Of a stretch of DNA of 17,500 nucleotides, positions 1 through 15,992 are shown piece after piece. The stretch comes from Actinidia chinensis. Its lineage: Eukaryota; Streptophyta; Magnoliopsida; Ericales; Actinidiaceae. The notes beneath the pieces were generated by a model. The model did no database searches. It had not been told where the DNA came from and saw only the letters and a list, made by a program, of their open reading frames with translations. The translations under genes were made by a program, and so were the position numbers. Position 1 is the first letter of the stretch. Each line of letters starts with the position of its first letter. The stretch is from contig CM018901.1 in the NCBI GenBank assembly GCA_009663005.1, forward strand, positions 11,919,076 to 11,936,575, in the 5' to 3' direction.

Positions 1-1030
1 GGTACATCAAACTTCCAAGCTGAGGCGTAGGCACCTTAGCCCTGAAATTCTTTTCTTCTTCGTTCTGAGGGGGACTGATCTTGGATAAGCGAAAGTGACT
101 TGCCACGGGTTGTGTTGACTGGCTTGGCGTCGCCCATGTTGAATCTATGCAAAACACGTTGATTTGGACTCTGTTTGAGATAATGTGTAATCAATCCTGG
201 TTATTCTTGTGATTTGCATTCCCAAGCATCTCTTGATGACCCAAGTCTTTCATGAAACTCTTTTGACAATTGTGCTTAACCTTCTGCTATCATCCATATC
301 AGAACTGCTCCTGAAAACATATCATCAACATAAAGAAGTAAATGATATAAGTAGACTGATCTCTAAGTAGCAACATTGGTCGGCGTTTGGCACTTCTGGA
401 CGAAAACCCTTCCTTTGTTGCATGAAGCCTGTCAAACTTTTTATTTACCATTGTCTTGGGGCTTGTTTCAGCCATACAAACTCTTTCTTACGTTGCCACA
501 CCATATTTTTTTCCTTCTTCTGAGAAACCTTCTGGCTGGGTCATTTATCTTATCCACGTCTCCGTAAAGAAATGTCAGTCTTACATCTAACTGTTCAAGA
601 TAAAGATCTTCAAATGGCAACACACTCAATAGTCTGATAGTATTGAGCTTCACAACTGGAGGCAAAATGTCGGTTGTAGTCAACTCCTTCCTTCTGTGGA
701 ATCCTTTGAGACTAGTCGAGCTTTGTATCTATTAGAACCATCCTTGTTTTTTTTTGATTCTTTCACCCGGTTACACCCCTTGTTGTGAAGTGCCTTCTCC
801 CCAGGGTAACTCAACTAGTTCCCATGTCTGGTTGGAGATTAGAGACTTCATCTCGTCTTTCATGGCAGGATACCACGTGCTAGCATCTCCAGTCTGGACA
901 AGTTTCATCAAGCACTCAGCTCCCTTCCATCAGTCAACCACACACAACAAAATTTTTTTTTTAATTCATATATCTCCTATTCGGCACATTGAGGCCGAGA
1001 AGACCTTCTATACGGAGTTGAAGTAGGAGT
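1..1030 (-). pseudogene. copia reverse transcriptase pseudogene (partial at the left edge)
   Basis: The minus strand encodes VKLNTIRLLSVLPFEDLYLE and then LDVRLTFLYGDVD (about 650-555), the copia RT fingers and palm. KSLYG follows at the end of that frame (about 480-468). The catalytic YVDD is intact at 332-321 in the context LLLYVDDMFSGA, with a stop 11 codons later. HRFNMGDAKPV is encoded at about 150-119, marking the end of RT. The upstream linker (about 1270-1030) is poorly conserved and rich in Ser and Pro. RT would copy element RNA into DNA. Several stops and shifts make this a relic. RNase H is expected left of position 1. Confidence 0.92.
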
Positions 1031-3814: not shown

Positions 3815-5270
3815 CTTGCTATGCAATACTGCTGCTGCTCTCCAAGCTAATGCACATGTATCTTCAACCTCTACTACCTCTTGGGAAGAAACCGGTTGAA
3901 GGCATGGGTATACAAATCAAAATCAAACTTGATGGTATTTGTCGAATGTTATAAGGCTAGATTGGTAATCAAACGATACAATCAAATTGAAAGGTTAGAC
4001 TAATCCGTGAGACTTTTGCCCCAGTTGCAAACTTGTGACGTAGTCGCGCTTACTTGCTGTTGGCCTCAACTCACCATGCATCTCCCCAACTCGATGTCAT
4101 AATGCAATTCTTACATGGATAATCTTGATGAGATGTTTACATGTCTTAACCACCTCCTGTTTCCGGATGAATGGGGAGACATGAATTGCAAACTCCACAA
4201 ATCATTGTACGGTCTCAAACGCTTCCCGTCAATGGCTTATCAAACTCTCAACCGCCTTAAATAGCTAACTACAAACAATCGAAAGCTAATTATTCCTTTT
4301 GTTCATCCTATCCTAAGATGGTAAATTCACCGCCCTCCCATTTAATGTAGATGATTATTATTCTAGCAGGAAACAATCTACAAGACTTGAAGACAAACCA
4401 AGTTTTCTAAGAATCAATTTAATTTAAAGATCTGGACCATTGAACTCTTTTAGGCAAGAAAGTTATTCGATCCAACAAAGGCAATCGCTCTTTCACAACA
4501 AAATTCCCTTGAAATTCTGAAGACGTTGGAATATCTCGGTGCGAAACTAGTTTCTTTTCCCTATGGCAAAACTTAGCCTTAGTAAGTTTGATGTGACTAC
4601 ATTGTGATCCTCCTCATATCAAAGGACTTGTTGGGCGGCTAATTTATTTGACTATCACTTGACCCGACTTGGTCATGTGAGGTCCATGTTCCTAATCATT
4701 TATGGCAAACCCTGGTTCACATTTAAGAGGCCAGCTCATCGCGTCTTGAGATATGTGAATACAAACACCAGGGCAAGGAATTTTTTTCCTACAACTAGTT
4801 CAATTCAATTAAATGCCTTGGGGATGCAGATTGGGTAGAATGTCCTGATACTCGACGATCGTTACGGATTTGCATATTTCTTGGCATTCATTAGTCTCTT
4901 GGAAAACCAGAAGCAAACTAACTACCGTGTCACGGTCCAGTGCAGAAGTTAAGTATCGATCTATGGTGCAACTAGTTGTGAAATCTACTTGGTTGAAATA
5001 CTCCTACAGATTTGGGCATCACGCATTCATCCCCTACATCTATATTGTGACAATCAACACACTCACATTGCCTAACACCCCTATTTTTCATGAGCGAACG
5101 AAACATATAGATTGATTGTTATGTTATACGAGAAAGGGTACAAGAAGGAATGATCAAAACAGCTCACATATCCACATCAACACTATCAGCCGACATTTTT
5201 AACAAAGCCATTGAGTTTCTTTCACAAATTCTCGCTTTACTTGGCAAGTTAGAATATCAACATACATTCA
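3815..5270 (+). pseudogene. copia reverse transcriptase-RNase H pseudogene
   Basis: Across frames the plus strand reads AMQ then LPLGKKPVEG (about 3873-3905), RETFAPVANL (about 4005-4035), QLDV and FLHG (about 4080-4115), KLHKSLYGLK (4192-4221) and FTAL leading to NVDD at 4344-4355. NVDD is the polymerase motif with its tyrosine changed to asparagine. The RNase H part shows GDADWVECPDTRRS at 4820-4861, then SRSSAEVKYRSM at about 4935-4971, LYCDNQ (about 5041-5058) and FHERTKHID (5089-5115), then MIKTAHISTSTLSADIFNKA (5150-5209). These match the usual copia RNase H motifs. Many stops and frameshifts show it is dead. Confidence 0.92.
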
Positions 5271-6510: not shown

Positions 6511-7286
6511 AGGGTTAATTTTACTATGACCCCTCAACTATAAAAGGGTATTACTTAATCTTCAACTAAAAAAATCAATGAAACAGACCCGTAAAATTTA
6601 AACTGTTACCACTAACACCCTCTTCGTCTAGATTCTGTCAAAATATGTTTAAAATGACAGTCATGTCCTATGCATTTACTTACCTTCTTTCCACATAACA
6701 TGAACCCTAATTTTCCTTAAACACATGCTTAAAAACCAAAACCTCCCTTCTAAATTTTTTAATATTCTTTCTTCCTCTCTTGTATTTGAATGGCATCAAA
6801 TGGCGATAACGATAACACTCACTAAGAATCTAAAGAATTCTGATTTTTTTTTTGCTATAATAGTGTAAGATGGCTGATAAGACATTTTTTGAATGAGAAC
6901 TTCAAGGAATGTTTAACTATTTTTTTGTTCATAATCTTAAAATATTTTGTAGAGAAATGACAATTGAGTAAGAGCAATGTGTTACTAAAAATGAAAAAGG
7001 ATAACCACAAAGAGCCACATTTCAACTAAGATGAGTAATTTTTTACCAAAGGATGTGTCTTATTATTTTTTTTAGTTGATGGGGTTAAGTGATACTAGCT
7101 TATAGTTGAGGGGGCTTCCGTAGGAACACCCTAAAATCTTTGAGGTTTGGGGTCCATTTAAAAACTTTTTTTTCCGTCAAAAGAGTTGAGAGAATTTTAA
7201 TTTTCAATAGTTAGGGTCTATTTTATTGTTTTTCAGTTGAAGGGGGTTGTGTGATACGTTAAAATAGTGTTAGTGAAATTAACCCT
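6511..7286. mobile_element. Non-autonomous Mutator-like (MULE) element with long TIRs
   Basis: The 776-bp element starts AGGGTTAATTTTACTA and ends TAGTGAAATTAACCCT, an inverted match of 15 of 16 bases. The inverted similarity continues inwards for about 75-80 bp (6511-6590 against 7213-7286), with shared CTTCAACT and AGACCC blocks. It is flanked by a perfect 9-bp direct repeat, TTTTAACTC, at 6502-6510 and 7287-7295. A 9-bp target duplication is the hallmark of Mutator-superfamily transposition. There is no transposase inside, so it would depend on one supplied elsewhere. A second copy of part of the right arm lies inside at 7074-7113. Confidence 0.88.
6790..6960 (+). pseudogene. Possible GRF-type zinc-finger relic inside the small MULE
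   Basis: An ATG at 6790 opens a short frame, MASNGDNDNTH, then a stop. About 70 bases on, pieces in mixed frames read like a GRF zinc finger: a CY start (about 6854), FF at about 6885, ENFKEC (about 6895-6912), and NYFF (about 6915-6926). In the GRF family these correspond to the CYCG, RRFFGC and CxFFxW segments. I infer that the element once carried such a small gene. The match is weak, with frame changes and missing cysteines, so chance similarity is possible. Confidence 0.25.
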
Positions 7287-7847: not shown

Positions 7848-7856
7848 GAAATGATT
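7848..7856. repeat. Left target site duplication of the FAR1-type MULE (imperfect)
   Basis: GAAATGATT matches TAAATAATT at 15596-15604 in 7 of 9 positions, directly outside the matched inverted ends. Confidence 0.6.
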
Positions 7857-8310
7857 GAGAAAGTCTACATTCATCGCATTTGTTACCGAATTTTTGACCG
7901 AACTTACCAAACCGACGTCATTTTGAATTTTAAAAAAAAAACTAAAAGCCAGAATTTGGGGACGATTTCATCCAAATTCAAACCCAAATTATGTTCGTCC
8001 AAAGAGAAAGCTCCGGCGAGTTCTCATCGTTTGGCTCGCTTACGACACCAAATCCTATGTACGTTTCTTCTTTCTACTATTTTCTATTGAATCCTCTGTT
8101 CATATTTTGGATTTTTGAAGAACTTTAGTTAATTTTTAGTGTTTGGTATTTGTGGTAATTATTGCATAATTTTTTTCATTAGGGGATTGCATATTCGATT
8201 GGTAGATTCGTCAATGATTAACGTATCCGCAGTGTCATGTTTCCTTTTTTCTATTACCTGCCCCAATTTTGCGGTCAATAATTTACCAATAAATTTCGCA
8301 ACGTTACCTT
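7857..8310 (+). repeat. Left terminal inverted repeat of the FAR1-type MULE
   Basis: It pairs with 15150-15595 in inverted orientation. Blocks shared with the other arm include GACGATTTCATCCAAATTCAA (one base longer than 20 in the arm; core at about 7961-7980), TACGACACCAAATC (8041-8054), GTACGTTTCTTC (8059-8070), GTGGTAATTATTGCATAAT (about 8152-8170) and GTAGATTCGTCAATGATT (about 8202-8219). Similarity fades after about 8300. A putative splice acceptor, TTTGCAG, lies at about 8315-8321. Confidence 0.85.
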
Positions 8311-10145
8311 TTGATTTGCAGTGTCTGTTACATTTTTGATTGGAGTCATTTTCAAATTGTTCTTAGGTTCCTTACGCTATATAATTTTTGTTATTATGTT
8401 TTTTTTTTTTTTTGTCTTCTTTTCCATTTGGTCCCCTACCCGTTGTTTTGGTATTTTTGTATAATACTTGACCGTCTATATGAAGATTTAGATGCCCAAA
8501 GATTAACGAAAGTAGCAATGTCTTGCCAACCATGACCTTCCAATTTTTCAGTTGTGGTTTCTCATTGAACTCATTTAAATGTCTGAACTGTGAAGTATTT
8601 ATGTCGGATACTTGACATTTAGGTAAGGATGTTGAACAAGTGTCCGACATGTGTGGTCGGTCATTCATCCAGCAAGAATGTTTGATAATTTGAGTTTTTA
8701 AAATACATATATTGAGTTGGACAAATTCCATACTAAGTAATAATATATAGCACGCGACCTCTAATTTGCTTATTACCAGGATACGAACACTGGCATTGTG
8801 AGTTTGATGATTTTTTTTTCCAAAAGAAGTGCAACCTACTGGGTTAAGGCTCAACTTTTTTCTCTTGTATGTGGGAATGTACAGTAGAGACATTACTAAC
8901 TGCAACGCAATAGTTAATAAATGGGATTCCTTATCGCCATCCCTTAGAATTTCATGACTACAAACTTCTATGTTGGATAAATTGCTCAACTCTGGGAATT
9001 GGAGTTGAGGCACTGCATTGATCTGTTTTTGTGACCTTAATTAGTTGTGCAAGGGAAAATTTGTCATGCTGCATAAACAGCTGATATAGAGACAGTGGTT
9101 GGAATCTTTTTAAATTCATGGTGGCTGTGGGATATAAGTAGGGATTCGGAGTTTTTTCCCATTATGGACGAAGAACTGTTCCCGTTTAATCCAAGAACAT
9201 ACTTTCACATTAGGAGAAAAATTGGGTTTTTTTGGCATGCAGTGGGGTTTGAAAAGGGCGTTTCTTTTGTTTTATGTAGTACTGAGGGGGTGATTATTTT
9301 TGATAATTTTCAGGATGGTTCTATATAAACCAATAATTGGCATTTCAGGCTGTGACAATAGTGACTGTAAAATATTGCCTTTCACAAAAGACTTTCCTTG
9401 TTCCATTGTGAGTTCTGTAGAGGGGGGGCATTAACTCAACAGGATATCTTATAGTTTAGAACATCTGAACTCTTCTTGTACTGCACTGACATATTCCTTT
9501 GCAAAGGGAGCACCTTTTGAGCGTTGTGCAATCTTATGAGCATCCATATTTTCCACCTCGTCGAAAGGGATGCTATGAATGATTATGGTCTGCCCCCTTT
9601 TTTTGAATTTTCTGTGTTTAGAGATTAACTAATATTAATTACAACTTGATCTTTTGGAGGATTCTATTGCTTACATTATTGTTATTTTTTCCTTGTGTAG
9701 AGTTACGGCTCTTAAATGCAAAAAAGTGCCCCCCAAAATTCGCACAAGCTGCTGGACATGAAATCAAACTTCTGTTTCTGAGTTTAATTATGCTTGTAAA
9801 GTTGTATCTCTGGAAAAGTTTTTGGAGTGGGACTGTTGGGTAAATTGGGGGTTTAGTTGAATTGCTGACAAATGTGGTATTTTCTTTTGAAATCAGTTTT
9901 TTGCTATCATGGAGAACTTCAACTTGAAATCCATCCTATTTTATGCTAGTGGCTCATTCCGCTGAAGATGGATGTTGTCACATGCCATTATGAAAAAATG
10001 TGTAGGTTGAAGACATCTTGGACTGACCATAACTCATGAAGAAGGTTTCTAGATTGTTCATAATGTCAACGCAAAAGGGAATAGAATATATATGCAACTG
10101 GGTTGAAATAGTTGAAATACTATTTTTGTATCAAAAATCAAACAT
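8311..10145. other. Left interior of the MULE, unexplained
   Basis: No transposase or retroelement motif is visible. Several acceptor-like sites (TTTGCAG near 8320, TTTTCAG near 9314, TTTCAG near 9350, TTGTGTAG near 9700) and mixed base composition give it the look of introns with short exons on the plus strand, but I recognise no protein. The piece LDRLYEDLDAQRLTKVAM (8466-8519) is the most protein-like, without a family I can name. The minus-strand open frame at 8372-9013 (213 codons) has a low-complexity Lys-rich end from the poly-T tract at 8400-8413 and looks spurious. Captured host gene DNA, common in MULEs, is one possibility. Confidence 0.35.
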
Positions 10146-10656
10146 TGTAGTTTTGTGGTAACATTTATCTTCTTGGAATCAATCATAATCTTTATTGCAA
10201 ACTATTCTATTTTGATGTCTATGCCAATATGCAAAATTCAATTACAAAGTTTATAACTCATGATCAGCCAACTCATGACTAGCCACTCAATGATCTTGAA
10301 GAGTCCTATTTAAGCAACTAATTCAGTTACAATCACACTTACTCTCATTATAATCCGTAAGTGCCTACTTCCAGGACAACTCATTACAATTCCAAATAGA
10401 TCAAAATAAGTCCCACATAGTACAATCCAAATACTCAAAATATGGTCCCCCCTCCTCCCAAACTGCCCTTGATTTTCGAATAAATTTGATGTCCCCCAAC
10501 TTGAGTACTTGTAATGCCTGAACTTGGAAACTGGGCATGTTAATAAATTGGTTGAGAGTTGCACAATCATGGTGGGGCATAAATGTAGAAAATTTGGGGC
10601 GTCATGTTTTGGCCACAATAAATAACAAGCATGTAATTTGGGTAACTCTCCCAACA
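10146..10656 (-). repeat. Possible solo LTR or LTR fragment
   Basis: Read on the minus strand, the segment could start TGTTGGGAGAGTTACCC and end AAAACTACA. It has a TATA-like TTAAATAG at 10313-10306 and a polyadenylation signal AATAAA at 10196-10191 in the right order. The 118-codon minus-strand frame within it (10310-10666) has no recognisable domain. No clear target duplication is seen, partly because the outer end lies in a CAA repeat (10651-10665). The limits are tentative. Confidence 0.35.
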
Positions 10657-10760
10657 ACAACAACAAAAAATAATTTTAAAATCAAACATAATAAAGGGAT
10701 TTTATAGGGTAGGAATTTAGAAATGAAAAAAATTATTACATTTATATTTACAACACTCTT

Positions 10761-10802
10761 TTATGTTCCAAACACATTCCCATCTTCATTCTCCTCAACC
10801 TC
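10761..10802 (-). pseudogene. Putative last exon of the transposase
   Basis: After the acceptor CTCATTTCAG the minus strand encodes EVEENEDGNVFGT and a TAA at 10763-10761. A short acidic tail after a basic segment is plausible for an FRS-type protein. It has no stop or shift, but it is only 13 codons, so this may be chance. Confidence 0.4.
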
Positions 10803-10902
10803 CTGAAATGAGTACAACAATATAGCTATAAGCAATTCATCAAGATATGTAATTTGTGTCCCATATTAACAAGTAAGCAGGAATTTAAAATTAACTTATA
10901 AC
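10803..10902 (-). other. Putative 3' intron of the transposase gene
   Basis: On the minus strand the basic tail of the transposase (DPKAVNRKGR..., then Lys-rich) runs to CCAA followed by GTTATAAG (donor GT at 10902-10901). The acceptor CTCATTTCAG ends at 10803, followed by an open acidic frame. The 100-bp length and AT-richness suit a plant intron. Pattern-based only. Confidence 0.4.
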
Positions 10903-11359
10903 TTGGTCTTTTTTTTAATTCTCTTTTTCTTTTTTATACATTTTTTCAACAACACCTTACTTTCTTATTATGGCGGGCTCTCCCTTTTCGATTAACGGCT
11001 TTCGGGTCAAGGATATTCTTACTCTTTTTTGGAAGGTAGCGATTACATCTCCAAGTGAAAAGAAGCAGTTGAGTATCGGAAAGCACATTACTTTCAACAA
11101 ACAACTGAAGACTCTACAACTCTATTTTTTAGCTCTTGTACCCGTACCATCCAACCGTTTCATACTTCTCCTTCACAATTCCCTCTATAACAAAATCAGC
11201 AACCTCATTAAATTAAAGAAAATTTGCACATTTGTCAAGCGACGTGCTTCAATTGTCTATGACGAGTTATCAGAGTTGATTCAACTTTAGTGTGGGACCC
11301 TTTTCACACTTTTTTCCATCTTCGCAATACATACTTTCTCAGGTACTCTTTTAACTCTC

Positions 11360-11480
11360 CTTTTATGGAACACCATTAGTTGATGTTTAACACACCATCC
11401 TTTAACTCAACAATCGACAATTAAATTTGTTTCATCATTGGTCTCACTATTAAAATTGATAGTAAATGACACATGTGTTC
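11360..11480 (-). pseudogene. SWIM-type zinc finger relic of the transposase
   Basis: Minus-strand pieces FNC (about 11422) and MVC-KHQLMVFHKRRVKRV (about 11395-11340, across frames) match the position and rhythm of the CxCxnCxH SWIM finger of FAR1/MuDR transposases. It lies just before the PEKYVLRRW motif (about 11345-11315) that normally follows it. At least two stops interrupt it. Confidence 0.6.
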
Positions 11481-12700
11481 TCCTCTCCTTTTCTCTTCTC
11501 TCTTCTCCAACGTAATGTCTTCTCTACCTCATATTCTGACCAAACATCATCTACTTTTCTTTTGGACATGACCTCACATTTAAGTCTCCTGACAATACTT
11601 TCTGAAATTCTTTAAACTTCGCATTGGTGTAAACACATTGTCATTTGTGTCTCCCACTCATCTTCAGTTATGCAACGGGATGTAATAGTGGCAAAATTTT
11701 CACATCTTCAATTTTTTAATTTCCACCTTCTTATGCAAGCATTCTCATAATCGCTCCAAACAATTATTTCAAGATCGTCTTTGAGTTTTATGTGACATGT
11801 GACATCAAAATATGAATGCATATTCCATACTCTTACTTCTAATGTGTGGATGATATTTTCCCACCCAAAAACATATTTCAATTTCAACAAAACCGGCACC
11901 CATCCGATTTCTTTCTAAATACAACCCATGTAACTATCATTATTTTGAAGTTCGTACTTTTTGATGAACACATCCCAGCTCCCCTCAAACTCATCTACTG
12001 TCAGTGAATCATAAATTATATTTCTGGCAAAGAAGAGGTAAATTGTATTTATAGCTTGCACTTTTCCAAAATTTTCACAGGCATGTTTTTTCATTATGCC
12101 ATATACACCACCGGTGTCGAATGTTAGGGAATACTATTGCATTCTTCATGGCCATGCATTGATCGGTAATATTTGTAAGGGGGCCCGGTTCAAATCAAGA
12201 CACGGCCACGTAAGCGCCACGTAAGAAAAAAACAACTCCCATGTGGAAAAGTTTTAAACAAAAAAATTGACAATACACTGTCATTTACATCAGAGTGGGA
12301 AATAATTATTACAACATCTAATTACACTTTTAATATATTTATCAAAGTAAACAGCCAAAGCTGGCATCCACATGCCCAAGACTCAGGGATAACCCTCGGG
12401 TACCTGAAAATTATTCTTTATAGCAAAGGTGAGTACCTTGAAAAGATTTAACAATGGAATTGATGCTTCAAGCCCAAAACCATGATTACATTAAAACTAT
12501 ACTATGAAAAAATGTATTGTTGCAATAAGTATTGCTTTTATTATATCAAAATATACTTTAATTTCAATGTCGTGATTTCTCAAATCAACAAGGTTTTCAA
12601 AATTCGACTTTTCTCACAAGGCAATTACTCCAATAATTTAGAATGACACCCTAACCAATACCCCCAACCTCATATGCACAAGTACGCTAAGAAACACACC

Positions 12701-12847
12701 TGTCAACTTTTCGGACTTTCACAGTGGGCATGGATATTCCTTCCGTATTATGCCATCTAGGACTTTCATTTTTGTCAACTTTCCGCGACTTTTCACCGTG
12801 TGGGTTTGGTTATGACAATTCCTCCGATCTTGCCATCTCGGACTTTA
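12701..12847. repeat. Imperfect tandem duplication, unit about 72-75 bp
   Basis: Copy one (12701-12770) and copy two (12773-12847) both start TGTCAACTTT, have ATTCCTTCCG/ATTCCTCCG in the middle and end TGCCATCT-GGACTTT. It lies inside the solo-LTR-like insertion. Confidence 0.75.
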
Positions 12848-13413
12848 TTCTGTGCTTAATCTAAAGCCCATCTAATTTCGGGATATTTTAGCGTGTATTT
12901 TCAAAAAAATTTCTCATTCTCAATTCTAAATTCCATTTCTAAATACAAGGTTTATGTCTTTTTGACTTTTAGTTAACATCACTTCACAGTCTACATTAAA
13001 AATCACCTTTATCAATCAATTAGTGAAATATTTCATAAGCATTATGAGTATAATTGACAATAAATCTAATATAAATCAAAATAATTCAATAAAAGTTTCA
13101 ACATTTCTATCTTTCAATTTTGCATAAAATAAATTATATCACAAAACTAAATTTTTCCATTTCAATTTTAATTACAAAAAAAATAATGTTTAATAGACTG
13201 TATATAAGCATTAACAACCAAATCCAAAGTAAACCCAAACAAACTAACCCCCTTTACCTAAAATAGAAATTTGACATCGTCAGATATGAAGATCAGGATT
13301 CCATGATCGTCATACTAAAATTTTGCATTGATCCACGTCATCTCACCGTTGATCTCACTCCTATCTTTCATGATCAAAACTTAACCACACGCATATAATT
13401 TCTCTCATTTCTT

Positions 13414-13428
13414 TCTCTCTCTCTCTCT
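13414..13428. repeat. CT microsatellite
   Basis: A run of CT dinucleotides within a longer pyrimidine-rich tract (about 13403-13455), (GA)n on the minus strand, just downstream of the TATA box of the LTR-like insertion. Confidence 0.8.
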
Positions 13429-13472
13429 TCTCTTTCTTTCCCTCTTCTTTCATCCGAGCTTTCTCCCTCTCC

Positions 13473-13480
13473 TATTTATA
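13473..13480 (-). promoter_or_regulatory. TATA box of the solo-LTR-like insertion
   Basis: The minus strand reads CTCTATAAATAGGAGAGGGA, followed by GA-rich sequence ending in a (GA)n run, typical of a plant core promoter and transcript leader. Confidence 0.55.
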
Positions 13481-14329
13481 GAGTTGATAAAGTATGTTTA
13501 TATATATAAATATTATTATTTTATAGTTTAGTCTTTTCCCCCCCTTTTTCTTTTTTTCTTCGGCGCCTTCGGGCAAAAAAAAAAAAAATTGCAGTCTAAT
13601 AGTTGATAAAAAATTACACTTCAGCCCCTCCAACTTCTAATTACATTATATAATCTCAAATTTTTTAAATGTCCTCTTTATTTTAATCCCATAAGTCATG
13701 AATCGATCAATTTAAACTCAATACAATATAGCAAAGTCCAAATTTTATATATATAAAATTGAAACCTCATAATTGCTATGGGAGCAAACCCCAATGCATT
13801 CATCCAAGTCTTAAATAACCACGAGAATGACATTTGTGTCTTTCTGAGAAATGGAGTCCACATACCGAATAATATTAACGACCATGGTGATTTAAATGCC
13901 CGACAAATGGAGCAACAGGCCATGTCATATTATTTACAAGTACATTGTGTCAAATGTTACAACATCACCAAACTCCTTACAAGTTGCCCTACTCCTTGAA
14001 TTAGCCCAGAATACATTCTGTAGTTTACCCTCATCATCCAAATCCATGGCAAAAAAGAAGTCTAAATTGTTTGCTTTTATTTTCATAAAATAATTATACA
14101 TCGCCTCAACATCTCTTTCCACAAGCAATTGTTGTCGCATTTTATTAAAATGATTTCAACAATCTTTTGGAAGAAATTGAAGGTTCTTCTGTCCCCCCCG
14201 ACTCAATTTTGGTGGTCATAAGTCCGTGCAAACTTAATCCCGACTTGATCCATTCAATTCTAGCCCTTTCTTTTTACATGTCATCAAGACTCTATTAGCT
14301 CTTGTAAAACCTTGAGTTTCCAAGGTTAT

Positions 14330-14615
14330 TTACTGATTGTGCTCCAAAGCAACCTTATTAACTTCATTTTTCATCAGGCGAGCTTAGACACTCAATTTGA
14401 TTTTCGAATCGTAGTTGACCGGATTGGTGTTGTAACCCTTGCCTTCCACCAAGATTACATGAAAAAGTTATACATTCATCAAGTTGCCATTGCTTCCCTT
14501 GCGTGAGTTTCTTTTGGACCACAAACAAACCCCTTTATTTAGCATATATGGTAATATTAGATAAGTTTCATCTTATGTGTCACACTTCATTCTCGCCTTC
14601 GGTTCCTCAACCCTA
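14330..14615 (-). pseudogene. FAR1 DNA-binding domain relic of the transposase
   Basis: On the minus strand the domain starts at EEPKARMKCDT (about 14605-14575) and continues DETYL, then LNKGVC-like residues (about 14540). KRNSRKGSNGNL follows (about 14517-14480), then SCNLGGRQG (about 14455-14430) and VALEHNQ (about 14350-14333). In FAR1/FHY3 proteins this WRKY-GCM1-type zinc finger binds DNA through conserved Cys and His residues. Frames change at least twice and one His of the HNH is lost, so binding activity is not expected. The same domain in active elements would recognise the TIR. Confidence 0.8.
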
Positions 14616-14743
14616 TGTTCAAATTTCATTTGCACCATTTCCCCTCCATTAGTAACCTATCTCATCACACTTTTTTGAAGTCCCTATTCGATTACTTCAT
14701 TTTCTACTATTCATTTTTTGAGTTGTGTTGGTGTAACAGACTC

Positions 14744-15378
14744 CTACGACATTAAAATTATAGTAATTTGTTACTCAAAACCTAATAAATTACAAGTAGC
14801 AAAGAGTAAAAATTAATTCTATAGGGAGAATTCAATTTTGACAAATTCAATCAATCAAGCAAATATTAAACGTATTATACTTAGAAATTAATTTTTGATC
14901 TCAACATAAGAAAAGTTACATGTATCACCAGCTTTATAATAACAAAACCAAAAAAATGACCTTGTAAAAATTCACATTAAGGAATCAGAAATCGCGACTT
15001 CATAACAAAAAACCGCATTACTCTCAACTTTTGCTTCGATGTTCTCCCAGGAAATAATCACATAAATAGTATGATAATGATAGAAGATGAATGAGATACA
15101 TTATTTTTACATATGCACATAAATGGTGGGCAACGACAACTGAGACTTGGTAACATAGCTAAAGCGAAAACATACTTCAATCACTTGGGGGAAGGTAATA
15201 AAAAATGAAACAAGAACGGCGATACGTTCAATCATTGACGAATCTACATATTGCAAATCCCTTAATGAAAAATTATGCAATAATTACCACACTCACAACA
15301 ACAAAAAAATTAATTAAGATCTTCAAACATCCAAATATAATAGAGGATTCATAGAAATAGAAGGAAGAAGAAACGTAC
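14744..15378 (-). other. Putative 5' UTR intron of the transposase gene
   Basis: On the minus strand a donor GT at 15378-15377 (GTACGTTTC) and an acceptor GTCGTAG ending at 14744 would remove a 635-bp AT-rich segment. The new exon would begin GAGTCTGTTACACC, with the first plausible ATG at 14714. The left TIR has an analogous acceptor, TTTGCAG, followed by TGTCTGTTACA at about 8322, hinting at a shorter ancestral intron. This is inferred from splice-site patterns only. Confidence 0.4.
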
Positions 15379-15595
15379 GAAAGATTTGGTGTCGTAAACG
15401 AGCCAGACGATGGAGAACTTGTGTCGGAGCTCTCTCTATCTTCAGAACGAACAACTATTTTAAGATTTGAATTTGGATGAAATCGTCCGCCAAATTCGAG
15501 CTATTAGTTTTTAAAAAAAAAAAATTCAAAACAACATCATTCTGGTAAGTTCGGCCAAAATTTCGATAACAAATGCGGTGAGTGTAGACTTCCTC
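15150..15595 (-). repeat. Right terminal inverted repeat of the FAR1-type MULE, holding the transposase promoter/5' UTR
   Basis: This is the inverted partner of 7857-8310. Read on the minus strand, it leads into the transposase. A GA-rich segment (about 15440-15425), GCTCCGACACAAGTTCTCC and ACGACACCAAATC look like 5' UTR, followed by the splice-donor-like GTACGTTTCTTC with GT at 15378-15377. The donor sequence is conserved in both arms. In Mutator elements the TIRs act as promoter and transposase-binding sites, so this role is expected from the family. Confidence 0.82.
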
Positions 15596-15604
15596 TAAAT
15601 AATT
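15596..15604. repeat. Right target site duplication of the FAR1-type MULE (imperfect)
   Basis: TAAATAATT, partner of 7848-7856. The two mismatches fit an old insertion. Confidence 0.6.
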
Positions 15605-15707
15605 ATAGATTCAGATAAAATGTACTTGTACATAATCATTCTTTCTCTTTCTACTTTTATATCCCTTAGCCTTCTCTCTCTCTATATACGAACCTCATTA
15701 CCACAAT
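15605..15707 (+). other. Upstream flank of the LEA_2 fragment
   Basis: CT-rich sequence (15640-15685) between the MULE and the LEA_2 frame. It could be old 5' UTR or promoter of that gene, but no start codon or clear core promoter is seen. Confidence 0.3.
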
Positions 15708-15992
15708 AGATCTCCAAGAGGACGACCAAACATAGCATCATGTATAGTGGCCACATCATTCCTGATCTTCCTCATCGTCGACGCTGTGGCCGTCTTCTTC
15801 GTCCTGTTCAAGCCAGATCCCCCCAAAATCGCCATTGACGATGTTCAATTCTCGGCGTTCTTTGTCTCAAACGGTACCTTCAACCTCACCTTCTTCGAAT
15901 TCGTCTCTGTCACGAACCCTAACTATGACGACTTCTCACAGTTCAATAGTTCATTCCATCTCGTTTACTTCGGCACCCAGGTCTTCAAATAG
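15708..15992 (+). pseudogene. LEA_2 / NDR1-HIN1-like protein gene fragment
   Basis: The frame reads RSPRGRPNIASCIVATSFLI, then a hydrophobic membrane segment to FFVLFKP. It continues with DPPKIAIDDVQFSAFFVSNG and then NLTFFEFVSVTNPNYDDFSQ to LVYFGTQVFK and TAG (15990-15992). The order of short basic stretch, single transmembrane helix, then FKPxxPKI and the start of an extracellular beta-rich domain is that of plant LEA_2 (late embryogenesis abundant, hydroxyproline-rich/NDR1-HIN1-like) membrane proteins. Full family members are roughly 190-260 residues; here the second half of the domain is missing. The frame is open back to 15636 but has no in-frame ATG; the ATG at 15740 is in another frame. 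It is therefore a fragment or pseudogene. It is visibly richer in G and C than its surroundings. The MULE ends 112 bp upstream. Confidence 0.8.

Follow-up and report, generated by a model that had tools for sequence, protein, structure and literature searches.

Does the 7.7-kb stretch at positions 7857–15595 of the Actinidia chinensis DNA given above represent a single transposable element, or a host gene of the FRS type that has come to lie between two repeats? An earlier note on this window (the whole 17.5-kb stretch analysed, with 36% G+C) had favored a once-autonomous Mutator-like element (MULE) over a domesticated FRS gene, and the arms, the broken frame and a colinear copy described below support that choice. 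Judging from sequence, we consider it very probable that 7857–15595 is a dead, formerly autonomous MULE with a FAR1/FRS-type (Jittery-type) transposase. From its remains we infer past activity, binding of the arms and autonomy; the last of these is probable from the domain content of the transposase relic.

Terminal arms and flanking words

The left arm (7857–8272, plus strand), which forms the 3' end of the element relative to the transposase, aligns with the reverse complement of the right arm (15188–15595, minus strand), which forms the 5' end, with 338 identities, 53 mismatches (27 of them transitions) and 42 gap columns (21 indels), corresponding to a Kimura two-parameter (K2P) distance of 0.150; under an alternative scoring the counts were 342 identities, 48 mismatches and 25 indels. 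At 416 and 408 bp, these are long terminal inverted repeats (TIRs) of the MULE type. The pair reaches a local score of 402, whereas none of 271 control stretches from the window exceeds 35, which bears out the inversion; the likeness drops to background past approximately 410 columns, so that the previously given length of ~450 bp is slightly generous. The termini themselves, GAGAAAGTCTACA and GAGGAAGTCTACA, are near-identical and inverted, as first described. If the arms were identical at insertion, their K2P of 0.15 would correspond to ~11 million years at 6.5e-9 per site per year, a date on which we do not rely.

Immediately outside the arms lie the 9-mers GAAATGATT on the left (7848–7856, plus strand) and TAAATAATT on the right (15596–15604, plus strand), which agree at seven of nine positions and are likely the two copies of a target-site duplication. 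This near-duplication, already noticed earlier, was reproduced, and it is the best among 52 symmetric combinations of shift and length (13 shifts by four lengths). By itself, the agreement is modest, since the same level is attained by 0.28% of random and 0.94% of AT-matched pairs.

The transposase relic

The minus-strand FAR1/FRS-like relic that the earlier note had recognized between the arms is confirmed. A protein search with residues 60–245 of one raw minus-strand frame, its stops written as X, recovered 17 related proteins out of 300 candidates, each carrying a FAR1 or MULE domain; the named relatives come from Actinidia, Rhododendron, Camellia and Olea, with the nearest from Actinidia. 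In tblastn, all 17 proteins align to the minus strand at approximately 14770–13741 and 12194–10740, in alternating frames and with E values down to 3e-60. Frameshift-aware alignment to P0003, a protein of A. eriantha, gave 422–492 identical of 679–697 aligned codons, interrupted by 30–61 frameshifts and 5–14 stops, the figures depending on the penalty. At the cheapest frameshift penalty, P0005 and P0007 are 71% and 62% identical to the relic, and codon identity to the three related proteins is 62–72% with frameshifts allowed.

When the domain limits of P0003 are mapped onto the relic, its first part (13769–14770, minus strand) is found to hold a FAR1 remnant (14556–14336) and the early MULE domain, which extends from 13963 to 12085 across a nested insert, whereas the second part (10493–12181, minus strand), likewise carrying frameshifts and stops, holds the later MULE domain and a SWIM remnant (11442–11362). 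The FAR1 remnant is thus N-terminal and the SWIM remnant C-terminal, as in Jittery/FAR1-type transposases. The TFDT and ITDQ motifs are kept and the later QRSES is lost; we take these three motifs to hold catalytic residues.

In a tree of one 148-residue fragment of the relic with 15 of the 17 FRS-like proteins (two covered too little, and Jittery and the Arabidopsis FRS proteins were left out), the relic stands beside five close proteins, four from Actinidia and one unnamed, with P0010, a fifth Actinidia protein, placed elsewhere. The relic branch measures 0.75 versus at most 0.06 for those five, which is what free decay would look like. Allowing frameshifts raised the identity to the nearest relatives from ~57% to ~72%, and therefore the apparent mismatch between the divergence of the relic and that of the arms shrank; accordingly, we do not claim that the last transposition came after the element had died. 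Also rejected was the idea that the Rhododendron protein P0008 reads through the arm, its residues 1–40 matching at chance level (187 of 500 simulations reach the score for the right arm and 55 of 500 for the left). Residues 41–57 of the same protein match just inside the right arm, at ~15057–15010 (2 of 500 simulations reach the score). Plasmid, viral-contig, PDB and Rfam collections, which contain no plant genomes, returned nothing.

Together, arms and relic suggest how the element would have worked. The transposase gene, starting ~0.8 kb inside the right end and reading leftwards between arms of ~410 bp each, would have supplied a FAR1 domain that bound the arms and an RNase H-like (DDE) MULE domain that excised the element and joined it to a new site, where a 9-bp stagger would give the target duplication. 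Following insertion, the copy decayed through substitutions and many small indels, and another transposon arrived within the MULE domain.

Copies elsewhere in the genome

Our searches of the own genome covered 638 Mb in 1,499 contigs, and all copy counts are lower bounds. They uncovered a dispersed family that shares related ends. At C18:6613219–6619509, an arm, an FRS relic (P0003 residues 13–746, 40%) and an inverted arm succeed one another over 6.3 kb, one arm matching the other at 73% across 141 columns. Colinearity of the window with this locus runs in order through blocks 15037–13769, 12175–10493, 10155–10074, 10064–9965, 9872–9842, 9061–9006 and 8139–8001, at 75–90% identity. This colinearity provides the strongest evidence that 7857–15595 is one element, and the single-element interpretation put forward at the outset draws further support from C25:16615791 (L013), where a related arm is linked to an FRS relic that lies 662 bp inside the arm end, in pieces spanning P0003 residues 1–627; the stretch read there yielded no second arm. 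At C846, the only FRS sequence after the arm is residues 1–20 of P0005, at 90%, and window positions 14722–15036 (315 bases) match this locus at 79%. The 5' stretch between the right arm and the coding relic (14771–15187, minus strand) is, from 15037 or 15036 inwards, common to the C18 and C846 loci.

The association between arms and FRS sequences was assessed at 12 FRS loci, the window included, at which the match reaches the N-terminus: the 1.3–1.5 kb upstream of each was compared with seven arm sequences, except that the window was probed without its own arms and C25 without the L013 arm; the L010 arm, a duplicate of the opposite end of C18, was kept for C18. Arm-like sequence in the right orientation was present upstream at 8 of the 12 loci (7 of 11 without the window) at E 1e-4, whereas 42 control stretches, each a single strand of 1.5 kb, had none. 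Half of the eight hits are short (42–58 columns). Weak arm hits appear at C976 and C4 at E 1e-3, a threshold without a control.

These data allow the alternatives to be weighed. Domesticated FRS genes have an intact frame and neither TIRs nor target-site duplications; here, the frame is broken by frameshifts and stops, and arms are present. One could still suppose that a former host FRS gene became a pseudogene and that two independent repeats came to lie inverted around it by chance, a history with which the single arms L010, L011 and L014, lacking a partner arm and FRS sequence in the stretch read, and the FRS-like matches without a nearby arm (4 of 12) would agree. The arm-FRS-arm order is, however, repeated at C18 in colinearity with the window, which largely refutes this history, an arm and an FRS relic are linked at C25, and the controls contain no arms (0 of 42), so that we regard it as very improbable. 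Over 2.5 kb, including ~510 bp beyond the arm, L010 matches the 3' part of the C18 copy at 90% identity; because it has this outer flank in common with C18, it is a duplicated fragment and no independent insertion.

A similarly slim chance attaches to the capture of a host FRS gene by a non-autonomous MULE, in effect a Pack-MULE carrying a transposase-derived gene: domestication, not capture, would have to come first, and several loci have decayed FRS relics of the same kind preceded by arm-like sequence, as for an element's own transposase, even if MULEs do capture host genes (PMC6446971, as excerpted) and FRS genes form a large host family. Pack-MULEs, in addition, lack a transposase and enclose fragments of host genes, whereas a transposase relic lies between the present arms and no captured gene was recognized there in Pfam and homologue searches of the interior.

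Least credible of all, and close to negligible in our estimate, is a composite of two related elements lying side by side, each contributing one end and only one of them the FRS relic. In its favor, 53 of 391 aligned bases distinguish the arms, and short inverted pairs of related sequence are scattered through the genome; yet the interior of the C18 copy follows the same order all the way to both arms, and the 9-mers of the window show their agreement only where the two outer ends have been placed.

Several observations nevertheless weigh against the single autonomous element that we favor. A search with the left arm gave 13 matches, namely the two arms of the window and 11 rows at nine other loci, all of which were fetched and seven examined over longer stretches; these nine comprise four short inverted pairs without FRS sequence, two loci with FRS sequence and one arm, and three single arms. 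The arrangement that the earlier note proposed to look for, paired inverted arms around an FRS-like frame, is present at C18; it is absent from the three single arms and the four FRS-less pairs. No arm was detected at E 1e-4 at 4 of the 12 FRS loci (C976, C4, C17 and C16). The target-site duplication of the window is imperfect, at seven of nine positions, and the C18 copy has no convincing duplication, reaching eight of nine only with asymmetric shifts of the ends, as the best of 507 combinations. There is no 9-bp duplication at the inverted pairs C1184 (1,194 bp) and L009 (C18:5.63 Mb, ~0.9 kb). In Pfam, finally, the raw frames of the window match only a MULE fragment (PF10551), at 27.5 bits versus a cut-off of 27.6, with FAR1 and SWIM absent from the listing for these frames; tblastn and the frameshift-aware matches link the relic to proteins that carry PF10551. 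In favor of the element, the 9-bp duplication is perfect at two of the short inverted pairs with related ends, TTAAAAAAG at C4 (235 bp) and TATCAGTTA at C16 (L017, 181 bp), the boundary of the latter having been set by eye, one base inside the computed one.

How well the family has survived can be gauged from the FRS-like sequences themselves. A genome search with P0004 produced at least 73 matches (the best 69 of 105 candidates), 66 with stops and none above 80% identity; of the seven stop-free ones, two are short and derive from the broken C25 copy, and five have 29–43% identity. The second half of the relic has 21 genome matches including itself, the other 20 at 66–86% identity. Thus, with no close intact copy among the matches listed, the family is old and looks extinct in the searched genome. 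An empty site was not recovered from the own genome. Of 14 matches to the left flank, one is the flank itself and the remaining 13 all stop short of the 113 bases that adjoin the element; on the right flank, the LEA_2-like gene matches one locus only, the window.

At one further locus, L049 (C20:7911921–7915217), an FRS relic is accompanied on both sides by inverted arm-like sequence (901–1118 and 2672–2894, 76%); the outer end of one arm was looked for there and not found. Because residues 1–66 adjoin 538–616, L049 is probably an internally deleted copy.

Nested insertion and interior

The MULE domain is interrupted at 12182–13768 (minus strand), between CAATTAT and CAAATAT, by 1,587 bases with at least 87 own-genome matches (the best 40 of 683 candidates). 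Many of these matches start at query base 2, several stop at 1585 or 1586, and usually they come as two adjoining pieces. Because matches begin and end at its junctions and are abundant, the segment is, on this sequence evidence, identifiable as a copy of an abundant dispersed transposon that landed in the MULE domain. An intron was rejected as the cause of the gap, since at the insertion point the C18 and L013 copies are uninterrupted and the abundant repeat ends on the junctions. Given that 12182–13768 belongs to another repeat, the original element was about 6.15 kb long, so that the bounds of the proposed 7.7-kb element stand and its size does not. Nested insertions are common in coding MULEs, affecting over a third of those in maize and rice (PMC3903597, as excerpted). 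The two pieces of the nested-repeat copies often overlap at query 916–1068, an indication that many copies carry a duplicated ~150-bp unit.

In the interior on the 3' side of the transposase (8273–10492, minus strand), where four of the blocks colinear with C18 are located (10155–10074, 10064–9965, 9872–9842 and 9061–9006), a search for known proteins recognized none. An open frame of 222 codons' worth of residues (222 aa; 8375–9040, minus strand) exceeds every frame in 200 simulated sequences; considered as a captured gene, it has no Pfam match and no homologue among 155 candidates.

Comparison with known elements

MULEs are characterized by long TIRs, a DDE transposase and duplications of 8–11 bp, and their FAR1-bearing, Jittery-type members of dicots and monocots (group 36) have TIRs of 39–292 bp (PMC6446971); Jittery and FAR1 are placed together in clade IV (PMC3903597), all according to excerpts of these sources. 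Like the Actinidia element, Jittery/FAR1-type MULEs have TIRs and combine an N-terminal FAR1 domain, a MULE core and a C-terminal SWIM domain in one transposase (PMC3903597, PMC6446971), whereas the Actinidia arms, at ~410 bp, are longer than the range listed in the excerpt for group 36 (PMC6446971). In grapevine, the multi-copy dicot Jittery-like MULEs Jitvine-1 and Jitvine-2 occur beside single-copy, domesticated FRS-like Jithouse genes; the excerpted table gives the two elements lengths of 11.9 and 14.4 kb and dashes in the TIR columns (PMC2528002), unlike the Actinidia element of ~6.15 kb with its clear arms. Domesticated FHY3/FAR1/FRS genes encode a related protein with the same three domains as the relic, but these copies are, in the excerpt of the same source, single-copy and devoid of TIRs and target-site duplications (PMC2528002), in contrast to the arms and broken frame seen here.

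A further parallel comes from maize, where an FRS5-LIKE gene whose TIRs mark a transposon active at ZmTOM1 in ys3 is cited in the excerpted text of PMC6000157. As in Actinidia, an FRS-like gene with TIRs acts there as a transposon; the maize element is active and from a monocot, whereas the Actinidia element is dead, and the two are likened by description, not by sequence (PMC6000157). Since TIR-bearing FRS-like MULEs are already in print, only the family is new and its kind is known, which qualifies the earlier assertion that the ends of such copies are missed. Similarly, the assertion that the copies are usually labelled "FRS5-like" needs amending, the nearest named relatives being FAR1-like or FRS6-like instead. 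Across 80 species and 18,744 FAR1 genes, one survey recorded frameshift and nonsense mutations recurring among these MULE-derived genes; "TIR" is absent from its main text, as excerpted, and "terminal inverted" occurs there once (PMC8599713). Among the matches listed, no paper title refers to a MULE of the FAR1 type in Actinidia, which is weak evidence of absence.

The general picture of the Mutator mechanism is unchanged by these results. Their value lies in defining exactly where a FAR1-type MULE family of an Ericales genome ends, which helps to tell its copies from real FRS regulators, with which they are easily confused, and in the warning that some "FRS6-like" gene models of Actinidia may be transposons. 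Tentatively, and leaning somewhat to the contrary ourselves, we raise the possibility that the nearest FAR1-like/FRS6-like proteins of A. eriantha and A. rufa are transposases of still intact, possibly recently active members of this TIR-bearing family and not host light-signalling genes.

Surroundings of the element

The left flank contains two decayed Copia-type reverse transcriptase relics, at 111–833 (minus strand) and 3902–4258 (plus strand), with RVT_2 below the Pfam cut-off, and a 584-bp stretch at 6530–7113 whose inverted ends (29 nt, 83%) give it the look of a small transposon. On the right, an LEA_2-like fragment (15690–15983, plus strand) begins ~95 bp outside the element and is 80% identical to residues 3–99 of P0018, a 197-residue A. 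eriantha protein that falls just under the Pfam LEA_2 cut-off. The fragment, which is the sole own-genome match, has no in-frame start codon and its second half is missing. Small indels are abundant, with 21–25 between the arms and 30–61 frameshifts in the relic (10740–14704), and the adjoining LEA_2-like fragment carries one frameshift.

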